This document shows, in pieces, positions 6,670-38,167 of a stretch of 64,000 nt of DNA. This DNA comes from Flavivirga abyssicola (lineage in GTDB: Bacteria > Bacteroidota > Bacteroidia > Flavobacteriales > Flavobacteriaceae). Under the pieces are notes generated by a model. It saw only the letters and a program-made list of their open reading frames with translations, was not told where the DNA came from and did not search any database. The first letter of the stretch is position 1. Each line of letters starts with the position of its first letter. A program made the translations under genes and the position numbers. The DNA is taken from the NCBI RefSeq assembly GCF_030540775.2, contig NZ_CP141266.1, positions 2,343,001-2,407,000 of the forward strand, in the 5' to 3' direction.

Positions 6670-7044
6670 CTTTAGAGGGATTAGAGAGATTAAAATTAGT
6701 TGGGTGATAAATGTAATCCTGAACCTTATTTTTTGAAAATTTCTTAGATGAATAGCTATTTAATTCGTTTACCAATTACTTTATTGAAGGTTCTAGTCAA
6801 AAAAAGATTTAAATTTAAGATTATGCTTAAATGATTTTAAATGTTATGGGTTGTAACTATTTGTGATTGAATTTGTTATAAATGAAGTCGAAATATTCGA
6901 AATTCATATCTTTTAGAAAAGGGAAAAGCTAATCTGATTTTTTGTGTACTAATAAAACCTTCTTATTTTAAATGTTTAATCGAAAAGAATTCCCTGAGGC
7001 TTTGCCTCGGGGTTTCCGTTGAATTTGTCATTCCCGTGGCAACG
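6670..7044. other. gene-free A+T-rich stretch with one hairpin and half of an extragenic palindrome
   Basis: No coding frame is supported here. A hairpin at 6992-7012 (arm CCCTGAGGC, loop TTT) lies near the right side. At 7028-7044 a GTCATTCC palindrome half is cut by the left end of the insertion sequence that follows. The promoter for the minus-strand OmpA gene should lie in the part near 6670-6760, but I do not see a confident match. Confidence 0.5.
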
Positions 7045-8323
7045 CACTACTGTCCGGAATAATATATTATATTGTTTTATTTGTATTATTTTCACTGATC
7101 TTATTAAGATTAGTTAAACCAAAAGACTTAATTTTCATGTATTCTCAAACATATTTCGGAGAGCTGTTATCATTATTGCCAAAGCAAAAATTCAGGAGCA
7201 TAGTAGAGCGTAATAAAACGGATAAATATTCAAAAGGATTTAAGACATGGGATCATCTGGTGGCTATGATCTATGCCCAATTAAGCAAGGCCAATAGTTT
7301 ACGGGAACTAGAGACCACTTTTAACTCATTTTCTAACAAACATTATCATTTAGGGGTAAAAAGGATAAAGAGGTCTACCTTGGGAGAGGCCAATCAAAAA
7401 AGGGACTCAAGAGTTTTTGAAGAATTGGCCAATTATCTTATATCACAGGTCCATCATGATAGTACTAAAGATTTAAAAGCGCTTTTATATCTATTGGATT
7501 CCTCACCAATACCATTGAGCAACCACCGCCATAAATGGGTTGATGAAATGAATCACCGGACCAAAGGGCTTAAAATTCATTTGTTATATAGCCCATTGAC
7601 CAAAACATTATCCCAATTAAGTATTACCAACAGTGATATTAATGATATCAATAAAGGTCAAGAGCTAAAAATAGAACCCAATGCTGTTTACGTTTTTGAT
7701 AAAGGCTACACCGATTACAACTGGTGGTATAAAATACATCGGCACAATAGCATTTTTATAACCCGATTTAAAAAAAATGCGTCACTCAAAGTGGTAGATA
7801 CCTTTCCTGTAGATTCAAAACAGGAAAGTAGAATAATGGCAGATGAGATCGTTTTGTTTAAAAATAAAACGCCACGCAAAGGAAAAAAGAATGAGTATAG
7901 GGAACCGTTAAGAAGAATTACCGTTAAAAGAGAAGATAAAGATACCCCATTGATAATAGCAACTAATGATTTAGAAAAACCTGCAGAGCAGATAGCCGAT
8001 CTATACAAGAAAAGATGGGATATTGAATTGTTTTTCAAATGGATAAAGCAAAATTTAAAGATAAAACGGTTTATAGGCACATCTGAAAATGCAGTGAAAA
8101 TACAGATCTATACAGCCATCATTACCTATACTTTGGCATTGATCTTGAAGAAAATGAAATCAGCTAAAGAACCTCTTTATTTATTTGTTGAAAAGCTCTG
8201 TTCTTTAATGTTTGTGCCTGTCAAAAACACAATGGACTATCAAAATAGAATTAGAAAACAACAACAAAATAAAGTTAAATATCAATATGCTATTTTTGAA
8301 TAAATTTATTCCGGACAGTAGTG
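7045..8323 (+). mobile_element. IS4-type insertion sequence, 1,279 bp, intact
   Basis: Perfect 18-bp terminal inverted repeats, CACTACTGTCCGGAATAA at 7045-7062 and its complement at 8306-8323, bound a single transposase gene. The flanks are GTCATTCC at 7028-7035 and GGAATGAC at 8334-8341, so the element sits inside a GTCATTCC...GGAATGAC extragenic palindrome. No target-site duplication is seen: the 10 bases on the left and right do not match. This suggests that the element moved by recombination with another copy, or that the flanks changed after insertion. Confidence 0.9.
7137..8303 (+). CDS. IS4 family transposase (DUF4372 plus DDE domain)
   Basis: The 388-residue protein begins with a DUF4372-like N-terminal part (about residues 1-75) and continues with a DDE transposase core. 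The catalytic residues are likely Asp in LYLLDSSPIPL, Asp in YVFDKGYTDYN and Glu in the RWDIELFFKWIKQ signature. The frame is complete from ATG to TAA and ends three bases before the right inverted repeat. Nothing in the reading frame suggests decay, so the element may still be active. Confidence 0.93.
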   Translation: MYSQTYFGELLSLLPKQKFRSIVERNKTDKYSKGFKTWDHLVAMIYAQLSKANSLRELETTFNSFSNKHYHLGVKRIKRSTLGEANQKRDSRVFEELANYLISQVHHDSTKDLKALLYLLDSSPIPLSNHRHKWVDEMNHRTKGLKIHLLYSPLTKTLSQLSITNSDINDINKGQELKIEPNAVYVFDKGYTDYNWWYKIHRHNSIFITRFKKNASLKVVDTFPVDSKQESRIMADEIVLFKNKTPRKGKKNEYREPLRRITVKREDKDTPLIIATNDLEKPAEQIADLYKKRWDIELFFKWIKQNLKIKRFIGTSENAVKIQIYTAIITYTLALILKKMKSAKEPLYLFVEKLCSLMFVPVKNTMDYQNRIRKQQQNKVKYQYAIFE

Positions 8324-8347
8324 TGCCTTCGCAGGAATGACAAAATA

Positions 8348-22986: not shown

Positions 22987-23011
22987 GTCATTCCCGAGGC
23001 ATCGGGAATCC
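22987..23011. repeat. GTCATTCCCGAGGC extragenic palindrome
   Basis: The arm ATTCCCGA (22989-22996) and its partner TCGGGAAT (23002-23009) form a short stem with the small loop GGCA between. It is one of the GTCATTCC-type extragenic repeats and lies directly between the oxidoreductase stop and the second insertion sequence. Confidence 0.7.
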
Positions 23012-23056
23012 AAAAAAAGAAATATAAAAATAAGAGACCTGTCAGGTTTTTCAAAA

Positions 23057-24332
23057 CATAAGTGTTCGGAAGAGCAAAGTTCATTGACATATTTTCATAC
23101 ATTAGTTTATTAAATCAAGGTTACATGAGAAAAAAAGTTAGTGTTCACAGCTTATTAAAACTAATAGACAATGATTTTTTAACGTCTTTGGCCTTGGAGA
23201 CGGGTACAAACTATAAATCAAAAAAGTTACAAGGCGAAGTTGTTTTCAAATTATTGCTGATGTCCCTTTTAGACGATAAAAAGATCAGTTTGCGTCTCAT
23301 GGAGAAAACATTTTCCAACAACCTATTCAAGCTTTATTCTGGAATAGAAAAAGGTCAGACCATTAGGCACAGTAGCTTGTCAGAGCGTATTTCCGTTATA
23401 AACTCAGCGTATTTCGAAAGGATACATGCCCATGTTTATGAGCTTTCCGAACAATACTTTGATACAGAACAGGAGCCCTACAATATTCGCCAATTTGATT
23501 CAACAAGCCTGTCCCTTTCTGCCAAACTATTAAAAAAAGGGATGGTCAACGGGCTGAAGAACAAGAAAGGTGAGCATGGCAAGAAACAGATAAAATTCAC
23601 TGTTGGCCTGACCAACAACCTGCCGAGCAATATTCGTTTTTATAACGAACAGAAGCACTTAGCAGAAGACCTGACCTTACGTGAGGCGATTCTTAATGCC
23701 AATATCAAGGGTACAGAGGTAGTCGTTTTTGATAGAGGTTTAAAGAAAAGAACAACGTTTCAAGAATTCAACCAGTTGGACATCTTCTTTGTCACAAGAA
23801 TAAACCCGACAAAGAGTATAAAGGTCATTGAGCAAAATAGGTTGGGAAACAGTATTGAGACCGATACTCTAAATATCTTTAGTGATGAGAGGGTATACTT
23901 GTACCATCAGAACAAATCACTTTTAAAGAAACCCTTCAGGCTTATAAGGTCACATTCAAAGCAGACAAGGGAAGAGTTACTGTTCCTGACTAATATAGAA
24001 GATTTAAATGCGGATGATGTTACCGAGATTTATAAAAGACGTTGGGACATTGAAGTGTTCTTTAAGTTCATAAAGCAGCACTTGCATTTTAAGCATCTTG
24101 TCAACCAAAGTGAAAACGGAATCAAGGTCATGATGTATATGACCATGATTGTTGGGATACTTTTATTGCTTTACAAAAAACTAAACAATGTAAAGAGTTA
24201 TAAAATAGCTAAATACGAATTTACCGAGGAACTAAATATGGAAATAATAAGAGAAATAGTAGTGATTTGCGAGGGAGATCCACGCAAATCTGATATATTT
24301 GATACCTCTTAAAGCTCTTCCGAACACTTATG
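23057..24332 (+). mobile_element. IS4-type insertion sequence, 1,276 bp, intact, with 10-bp target duplication
   Basis: Perfect 19-bp inverted repeats: CATAAGTGTTCGGAAGAGC at 23057-23075 and its complement at 24314-24332. A direct repeat TTTTTCAAAA at 23047-23056 and 24333-24342 is the target-site duplication, so this copy arrived by simple transposition. It landed in the loop of an extragenic palindrome. It differs from the element at 7045-8323 in both ends and transposase. It interrupts the carbohydrate operon between the Gfo/Idh/MocA gene and the TIM barrel gene at 24375, and may cut expression of the downstream part. Confidence 0.93.
23125..24312 (+). CDS. IS4 family transposase
   Basis: From the ATG at 23125 the protein has 395 residues. 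A GTG at 23062 in the same frame lies inside the inverted repeat and is unlikely to be the start. The DDE residues are probably Asp in RQFDSTSLSL, Asp in VVFDRGLKKR and Glu in the signature RRWDIEVFFKFIKQ. The frame is complete and ends two bases before the right inverted repeat. Confidence 0.92.
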   Translation: MRKKVSVHSLLKLIDNDFLTSLALETGTNYKSKKLQGEVVFKLLLMSLLDDKKISLRLMEKTFSNNLFKLYSGIEKGQTIRHSSLSERISVINSAYFERIHAHVYELSEQYFDTEQEPYNIRQFDSTSLSLSAKLLKKGMVNGLKNKKGEHGKKQIKFTVGLTNNLPSNIRFYNEQKHLAEDLTLREAILNANIKGTEVVVFDRGLKKRTTFQEFNQLDIFFVTRINPTKSIKVIEQNRLGNSIETDTLNIFSDERVYLYHQNKSLLKKPFRLIRSHSKQTREELLFLTNIEDLNADDVTEIYKRRWDIEVFFKFIKQHLHFKHLVNQSENGIKVMMYMTMIVGILLLLYKKLNNVKSYKIAKYEFTEELNMEIIREIVVICEGDPRKSDIFDTS

Positions 24333-24374
24333 TTTTTCAAAACCTGACAGGTCTTAAGGACTAAGAGTAATATT

Positions 24375-26723: not shown

Positions 26724-27309
26724 TCAAAACTGATTATATTTTGTAATTGATGACTTCTTTAAAACGTCTATTACAGGATTATCTATAATTTCAACTTCAA
26801 TTAAACCTTCGTTATTCAAATAATTGCTCGCACTAGAATACCTATAATAAGATGCTTTTTCTACAATTCCGGCTCGCACAGGGTTTAAATGGATATAGTC
26901 TAACTTAGACCACATAAACTTGTGCAAATATATTTCCTCTGCATGATTTCCATATTGCCAAAATTGATAGTTGGTATTTCTACTATGGGTTTTTGTGGCT
27001 TTTTTAAATCTTTCTAGCATCCATTCTCTTTACTTTCGGGTTCGTTTTTGATTTTTTCTAATATGCTTTTAGCTGTAAATTTTTTTAAATCTTTTATTAA
27101 ATCTGATAGTTTACCATCTTTAGATTGAATGATTAAATGTATATAACATAACCATACAAAAGCATGCCTTTATTTTCTATGCAGAAAACTAAACAATCAA
27201 TAACAATATCTTTATAAGACTTTCGAGTAAAGACATCTATCCAATCTACTACTGTTGCAGTAATAAAATGTATTTTTTTTTGATCTCGTATAATGTAACC
27301 TTCTTTCAA
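26724..27309 (-). pseudogene. broken REP-associated tyrosine transposase (RAYT, IS200-like Y1 family)
   Basis: On the minus strand the N-terminal part reads GYIIRDQKKIHFITATVVDW, then IDVFTRKSYKDIVIDC, a good match to Bacteroidetes RAYT proteins. The normal YVIMSNHxH metal-binding segment is damaged: after LLYGYVIY the frame breaks near 27140 and only IHLI remains in another frame, so the first His of the HUH motif is lost. A second frame break near 27020 leads into the intact C-terminal part (MLERFKKA, then LDYIHLNPVRAGIVEKASYYRYSSA). The gene is therefore dead. No clear ATG is left; a TTG lies at 27309. Confidence 0.85.
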
Positions 27310-32621: not shown

Positions 32622-32654
32622 AGACCTGTCAGGTTTTTAAAACCTGACAGGTCT
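32622..32654. repeat. AGACCTGTCAGGT palindrome
   Basis: A 33-bp perfect palindrome (arm AGACCTGTCAGGTTTT; one central base). It begins 7 bp after the argG stop codon and is identical in sequence to 38135-38167 after proB. On RNA it would form a long hairpin. It may reduce read-through or protect the upstream mRNA. Confidence 0.85.
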
Positions 32655-38134: not shown

Positions 38135-38167
38135 AGACCTGTCAGGTTTTTAAAACCTGACAGGTCT
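38135..38167. repeat. AGACCTGTCAGGT palindrome
   Basis: A 33-bp perfect palindrome identical to 32622-32654. It begins three bases after the proB stop codon and ends 16 bp before the carbamoyltransferase ATG, so it fills the gap of 52 bp. Confidence 0.85.

Follow-up and report, generated by a model that had tools for sequence, protein, structure and literature searches.

IS4-family insertion sequences in extragenic palindromes: an element of Flavivirga abyssicola and related groups

We analyzed a stretch of 64,000 nucleotides from Flavivirga abyssicola (NZ_CP141266.1, positions 2,343,001 to 2,407,000; hereinafter the window) and found that one of its IS4-family insertion sequences, here termed IS-A, interrupts the same extragenic palindrome at the center in every full-length copy found in the genome. 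It is very probable, from sequence comparisons with related elements, that a dyad-symmetric target is selected by the IS-A transposase and that the cuts are placed about the palindrome axis. The features of the IS-A locus, together with two intact palindromes of its target family in the window, are as follows:

23035..23046, unstranded: left arm of the target palindrome, AGACCTGTCAGG
23047..23056, unstranded: left target-site duplicate, TTTTTCAAAA, the whole palindrome center
23057..24332, plus strand: IS-A, IS4-family insertion sequence of 1276 bp with perfect 19-bp inverted ends, CATAAGTGTTCGGAAGAGC
23125..24312, plus strand: IS-A transposase gene (P0001), 395 aa from the ATG at 23125, with DDE_Tnp_1, NCBIfam transpos_IS4_1, a Tn5-like predicted fold and the YREK motif
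24333..24342, unstranded: right target-site duplicate, TTTTTCAAAA
24343..24354, unstranded: right arm of the target palindrome, CCTGACAGGTCT
32622..32654, unstranded: intact palindrome of the target family, 33 bp, 7 bp past the end of the upstream ORF
38135..38167, unstranded: intact palindrome of the target family, 33 bp, 3 bp past the end of the upstream ORF

The perfect 19-bp ends and the 10-bp direct repeat that a first-pass annotation of this DNA had assigned to the element are present, as are the two intact palindromes of 33 bp each that it had noted at 32622 and 38135. The open frame of P0001 starts further upstream, at a GTG at 23062, and spans 416 aa. Against the IS4 model NF033592 (transpos_IS4_1, profile cut-off 115) P0001 scores 149.9 bits and P0002 242.1 bits. 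The IS4 family has been defined by a DDE transposase with the signature Y-(2)-R-(3)-E-(6)-K, as described in the available text of PMC2266710, and the YREK residues Y303, R306, E310 and K317 are invariant in an alignment of 10 sequences. IS-A further agrees with this family in having one ORF without a frameshift and a duplicate of 9-10 bp, where about 10 bp is expected. Described subgroups of the family are IS231, ISH8, IS4Sa, IS4, ISPepr1, IS10 and IS50. A PDB sequence search returned nothing useful; the best structural match of its predicted fold (mean pLDDT 74.4) is the Tn5 transposase (E 3.7e-11, TM-score 0.44). We classify IS-A as a cut-and-paste DDE insertion sequence of the IS4 family with a predicted Tn5 fold.

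The F. abyssicola genome (G000) is a single contig of 4,684,200 bp, and six full-length copies of IS-A were found in it among the 40 of 52 first-look candidates that were scored. Compared pairwise, these copies show at most 5 differences over 1276 positions, which implies a recent spread. All six are inserted in a target of the form AGACCTGTCAGG-center-CCTGACAGGTCT, with the center being identical on the left and right of each copy and reading TTTTTCAAAA and TTTTCAAAA in one and three cases, and TTTTGAAAA and TTTTAAAAA in one case each. One center is 10 bp long and the others are 9 bp; the middle bases of the six are C, C, G, C, C and A. As the center varies between copies and agrees within each copy, it represents the target duplicate rather than a part of the element. 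Thus, insertion exactly in the palindrome center, which had been claimed for the copy in the window, holds for 6 of 6 copies, all of which carry a matching 9- or 10-bp duplicate of their own, and is better founded than originally stated. The genome contains 14 known target sites (8 intact within 3 mismatches and 6 occupied), which make up about 0.01% of its length; with 6 of 6 copies in this fraction, the location of IS-A in the palindrome is not a matter of chance. A point against target selection is that the six sites all belong to a single repeat family and so do not count as independent palindromes. REPs are usually present in more than 100 copies, according to the available text of PMC2817692. 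With only 8 intact and 6 occupied sites in G000, the IS-A target is a low-copy palindrome family and not a classical REP. At some sites, seen with copies L002, L004 and L006, the AGACCTG palindrome lies within longer dispersed intergenic repeats, which are common to other loci of the genus.

Of the 12 genomes of the genus, 9 carry the palindrome family; when at most 3 mismatches are allowed, G000 has 8 intact sites and other genomes have as many as 22. The flanks of the six copies were compared with 40 palindrome-centered stretches from four sister genomes and with palindrome loci of the genus, and orthologous empty sites were seen for 2 of the 6 copies, the remaining 4 being without such a match. 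The site of copy L003 has its orthologue in G1105 (L204; flank identity 87% and 86%) and that of copy L005 in L201 (flank identity 95% and 89%, the latter over 273 bp), with the right-side matches of both starting about 40 bp past the junction. Each contains one palindrome and no IS, and the palindrome of L204 shows two arm differences. That the arms AGACCTGTCAGG and CCTGACAGGTCT are identical in all six copies might suggest that they belong to a longer mobile unit that carries them. This is barely conceivable and was rejected, because the center differs among copies yet is the same on both sides of each, because palindromes without the IS exist, both at the two orthologous sites and in G248, which carries the palindrome family and in which IS-A was not found, and because relatives with nearly the same ends are flanked by quite different palindromes. 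The arms are better viewed as target sequence. The empty site L201 reads TTTTGAAAA where the occupied site of L005 reads TTTTCAAAA twice (middle G versus C), and this difference would reflect either a C/G change or an inverted center. In a REP/RAYT system the palindromes lie on either side of a REP-associated tyrosine transposase (RAYT); a single weak match to a RAYT neighbors the AGACCTG family, in L189. In the window, a 57-aa stretch encoded on the minus strand at 26814-26978 resembles a RAYT-like protein of G776 (38.6% identity); for this ORF Pfam gives a sub-threshold Ogg-HhH match alone.

The second IS4-family element of the window, IS-B, shows the following arrangement:

7027..7044, unstranded: left half of a GTCATTCC palindrome with the center CGTGGCAACG, flanking IS-B
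7045..8323, plus strand: IS-B, IS4-family element of 1279 bp with ends CACTACTGTCCGGAATAA; transposase at 7137-8303 (DUF4372 and DDE_Tnp_1)
8324..8341, unstranded: right half of a GGAATGAC palindrome with a different center, TGCCTTCGCA, flanking IS-B

All three full-length copies of IS-B in G000 lie in the GTCATTCC/GGATTCC palindrome family. The first-pass annotation had suggested that both IS4-type elements reside in extragenic palindromes, and this proved true of every full-length copy found (6 of 6 and 3 of 3); the converse, that most other copies of the two elements lie outside palindromes, is not the case. Its further claim that the IS-B copy in the window sits within a palindrome needs qualification: each flank is one half of a GTCATTCC/GGATTCC palindrome, yet left and right have different central 10-bp sequences, and the two halves thus probably derive from separate targets. 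A clean 10-bp duplicate is seen in L019, whereas the window copy (L018) and L020 (G000:1184180-1185458) carry each other's centers crosswise, with one base different. These two copies are in opposite orientation and 1.17 Mb apart, and a chromosomal inversion of this length has probably taken place between them. A short remnant of the IS-B right end (L022, G000:3136689) also lies in the GTCATTCC/GGATTCC family and apparently arose by deletion via the ATTCC common to the target arm and the IS end. At 22988-23011 of the window a GTCATTCC-type palindrome directly adjoins the target palindrome of IS-A and is untouched. Among plasmid-borne relatives of IS-B, 2 of 6 are in palindromes as judged by eye (L288 from Parabacteroides and the ISRm16-like L289 from S. 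meliloti pSymB), while L285 and L286 are not in palindromes and L284 and L287 are without a duplicate.

When 397 genomes of the family were searched at the DNA level, the whole of IS-A turned up in its own genome alone; at the protein level, 395 genomes of the phylum yielded relatives in 5 genomes, including its own, and a plasmid search with P0001 recovered distant, partial relatives only. Relatives were drawn from the best 80 of 340 matches in named genomes, from searches of 395, 301 and 16 genomes and from 23 genomes taken singly. The nearest among the best 80 of 340 is a partial gene from an uncultured Flaviramulus (L041, 69% over 83 residues), whose site, AGACCTATCAGGTTTTAAAAA, belongs to the same target family as that of IS-A. 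IS ends and flanks were set for 37 sites, namely 19 in group A (6 of them from G000), 15 in group B and 3 of IS-B, with the ends of both full sites and half sites being chosen after inspection of the flanks, so that the choice was not blind. Group A elements have ends of the form CA....TGTTCGGAAGA or similar, and they target REP-like palindromes that take many different sequences. Group B elements, found in the family of a Mucilaginibacter genome, have ends of the form [CT]A....TGGTCGGAAGA, and their targets resemble bidirectional intrinsic terminators with an A-run, a stem and a T-run.

The position of the palindrome axis was assessed at sites with direct duplicates, which comprise 10 of 19 sites in group A, 12 of 15 in group B and 1 of 3 of IS-B. 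In group A the axis coincides with the center of the duplicate in 10 of 10 direct sites (with a tie in L104), and the duplicate measures 10 bp at the three even palindromes (L001, L023 and L030) and 9 bp at the seven odd ones. In group B the axes are off the duplicate center by up to 1.5 bp. The first-pass annotation had proposed comparing the rejoined flanks with random intergenic sites. In group A, whose direct sites include some from G000, 7.0 of the 8 positions next to the duplicate are paired on average, versus 2.25 at random intergenic positions (20,000 draws, same loci), 2.13 for random draws over all positions and 2.33 at 18 distant IS4 sites. The group B mean is 5.5 of 8 at the exact center and 7.42 of 8 within 1.5 bp (12 direct sites), the latter versus 3.92 for random intergenic positions and 4.0 for the distant IS4 elements; furthermore, 8 of the 12 direct sites have an A-run on one side and a T-run on the other, each of 5 or more. 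Half sites have complementary ends in the adjoining 9-10 bp in 15 of 17 cases, versus 4% of random positions; the IS end of L028 in this test is probably 2 bases off, and its corrected neighbor, ATTTGCAAT, was left uncounted. In Pedobacter rhizosphaerae (G789) the half sites of apparently one element show several different palindromes. Across the related groups, then, the palindrome is retained whereas its sequence changes. An apparent further direct case of 8 bp (L120) was noticed by eye and is uncounted.

We also scanned 54 distant IS4 loci, those giving a result being 23-36% identical over the matched part. An IS with a direct duplicate was recovered in 18 of these, and the other 36 gave no ends and are uninformative. 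The flanks of the 18 sites equal random on average, and a palindrome habit of the whole IS4 family was rejected on these grounds. The highest values are 6 of 8 pairs in L055 and 5 of 8 in L068, which means that single sites do not prove such a habit. In an unrooted tree of the 40 of 44 proteins that were long enough, with long branches flagged, a branch with support 97/97 separates 13 distant IS4 sequences and IS-B from groups A and B, and another (99/98) separates the other three distant sequences, which are on very long branches, with groups A and B lying between. Group B forms one clade (99/97), L039, which was assigned to group A, falls on the group B side, and the tree does not show groups A and B as one clade. 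The palindrome habit belongs to particular groups of IS4 elements.

None of the six occupied IS-A sites, when reconstructed as empty, falls inside an ORF of at least 90 aa, which agrees with the gene-sparing, extragenic placement proposed from the window. Among intact palindromes in the fetched stretches, 49 of 55 distinct copies are intergenic by the ORF criterion, 4 are in an ORF and 2 are at the edge of a stretch. Insertions into such mostly intergenic palindromes should be harmless, and one could conceive that insertion is random or merely intergenic and that selection leaves those copies that lie in palindromes behind genes. We hold this to be highly improbable: selection cannot explain why the junction falls precisely on the axis in all 10 direct group A cases, nor can it pick 14 short sites from all intergenic DNA, and other IS4 elements, mostly from Bacteroidota, are without such a pattern on average. 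Targeting by the transposase remains the preferred reading, and all the evidence on it is comparative.

In a sample of 464 kb of G000, consisting of the window and 20 stretches of 20 kb, we found 42 palindromes whose stem is perfect over 10 bp or more, of which 40 were inspected, and a separate pattern count gave two sites of the AGACCTG family, both in the window. Given 42 strong palindromes and two sites of its own family, IS-A does not take any strong hairpin, and the option of any hairpin as its target in G000 was rejected. Hence, the idea that hairpins are preferred targets survives in part: both elements are in palindromes in every full-length copy found, but hairpins as such are not the target, as each IS keeps to its own family. 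A related alternative is that the transposase recognizes an extruded hairpin or cruciform, or a single-stranded hairpin, rather than the palindromic duplex sequence. The use of palindromes of unrelated sequence by related groups, and even by the half sites within the one genome of P. rhizosphaerae, would fit recognition of such a structure, as would the tracking of palindrome parity by the duplicate length in group A and the folding of most reconstructed targets into the expected hairpin (that of IS-B L019 does not). However, the restriction of IS-A to one family in G000 despite the strong palindromes available, and the need for both target strands in making ordinary direct duplicates, speak for the duplex. 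Tn5 and IS10 have symmetric duplex targets and are not known to use hairpins. On balance, recognition of a hairpin appears somewhat unlikely, and we favor selection of a dyad-symmetric target.

Sites without a clean direct duplicate number 9 of 19 in group A and 3 of 15 in group B. In group A, L025, L026, L031, L034 and L039 have the same center inverted, and L029 nearly so; L027 has different centers in equal arms, L036 a direct duplicate with a 2-base difference, and L037 no palindrome at all. In group B, L159, L165 and L170 show mismatched centers with a terminator-like half to the left and to the right. Metagenome-derived assemblies are the source of all five cases with an exactly inverted center, so that an assembly error is possible in these. 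It seems likely that the inverted and mismatched duplicates (L025, L026, L031, L034 and L039; L165; L018 with L020) stem from loss between neighboring inverted repeats or from exchange between IS copies and not from another mode of transposition. Such a picture would result if the DNA between two REPs was lost once the IS had inserted, or if two IS copies within one inverted pair recombined. Consistent with this, some REPs in G776 and G784 form close inverted pairs, the right half of L026 bears, by eye, the head of an inverted REP, its two halves resembling the two members of such a pair, and L018 and L020, which point in opposite directions, carry reciprocal centers that differ by a single base; three imperfect duplicates of ISRm22 have likewise been attributed to recombination in the available text of PMC1525189. 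On the other hand, the genes flanking L026 are neighbors in G1103, G1101 and G1100, and the flanks of L165 are neighbors in G1113, where 47 bp that include a perfect 30-bp palindrome separate them; exchange between distant copies therefore does not explain these two. Moreover, the L026 locus is free of REPs in all three of the genomes related to G776, and the supposed pair is not seen there. The inverted duplicate was also considered as a new mechanism, to which REP pairs offer a simpler, though unproven, account. A fuller scenario of this kind would have an IS4 group that reads DNA symmetry or an extruded hairpin, cuts from the arms (9 or 10 bp by parity), joins its ends to two neighboring inverted hairpins in one step, and has split into REP-like and terminator branches. 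One-step joining would explain the inverted duplicates; as a whole the scenario strikes us as distinctly unlikely. Two loci deserve mention here. L278 (G1113:C31:257500-257850) is a perfect 30-bp palindrome at the place where, in the relative G1073, a terminator-like site contains a group B IS, and L282 (G776:C41:26000-27300) contains, at 452-1003, a RAYT-like ORF between inverted copies of the REP family of L026. The RAYT-like ORF of G776 scores 16.4 bits against PF01797 (Y1_Tnp), which is below the cut-off of 23.

In the direct group A cases, the sequences show that the two strand-transfer points are symmetric about the palindrome axis and that the duplicated 9-10 bp correspond to the loop and 3-4 inner stem pairs, with 9 bp if the palindrome is odd and 10 if it is even. 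They also show that one related group uses REP-like repeats and another hairpins resembling intrinsic terminators. Based on these observations we propose that each monomer of a transposase dimer may contact one arm, in which case the two arms, rather than a stagger of fixed length, would set the position of the cut; the target could be read as a symmetric duplex or as an extruded hairpin. The arm sequence would decide which palindrome family is usable for each element, with the preference drifting from branch to branch. The benefit to the element may be that palindromes just behind genes provide safe landing sites.

Many IS elements are thought to choose their targets loosely. The related Tn5-fold transposases studied here appear to share a sharp geometric rule, the palindrome axis, with the letters varying by group, and this rule makes the question of sequence versus DNA structure directly testable. 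Gene-sparing insertion into transcription terminators may serve insertion tools. Furthermore, palindrome families and IS copies can jointly seed large inversions, as IS-B seemingly did.

The analogy to insertion in REPs drawn in the first-pass annotation is apt in that 6 of 6 IS-A copies interrupt their repeated extragenic palindrome at one defined position, as do the type 1 REP-targeting IS delineated in PMC1525189. It is not new within the IS4 family: ISRm22 of Sinorhizobium meliloti is found in a REP palindrome in 9 of 9 chromosomal copies and 10 of 10 copies overall (PMC1525189). Like IS-A, ISRm22 is an IS4-family element with all copies in a palindrome and the insertion point on the symmetry axis, and like the IS-A groups it has some imperfect duplicates, which were put down to recombination (PMC1525189). 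Unlike those groups, it is, by its description, one element in one REP family with 6-bp duplicates, and the available text of PMC1525189 describes neither a 9/10-bp rule nor a terminator group. IS1397, ISKpn1, IS621, ISPsy8, ISPpu9/10, ISPa11 and other REP-targeting IS also enter extragenic palindromes, at a fixed point where this is described, and the duplicate is 3 bp in ISPsy8 and absent in ISPa11 (available text of PMC1525189), versus 9-10 bp in IS-A. Unlike IS-A, these elements belong to the IS3 or IS110 families and use other chemistry.

IS1272 of Staphylococcus aureus is a member of the IS1182 family. The available text of PMC5678879 describes three new insertions of it in stem-loops that differ in sequence, two of which lie immediately downstream of genes, with the inverted repeat being replaced and no duplicate formed. 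In IS-A, by contrast, the arms are kept and the center is duplicated, in 6 of 6 copies. The target symmetry is short in IS231A, IS10 and Tn5, whereas in IS-A it reaches as far as 12 bp beyond either end of the duplicate. These three elements resemble IS-A in DDE cut-and-paste transposition and a duplicate of about one helix turn (available text of PMC2266710), and palindromic Tn5 target sites have been stated (PMC1525189, likewise in its available text). A "spectacular apparent insertion specificity" in the target arms is ascribed to some IS4-subgroup elements in the available text of PMC2266710. Our literature search, which left subscription journals mostly uncovered and is thus weak evidence, found, among the papers listed, no report of a terminator-targeting IS4 group or of a parity-dependent duplicate length. 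Set against these known systems, the group-wide rule, the terminator targets and the axis-locked duplicates appear to be new.
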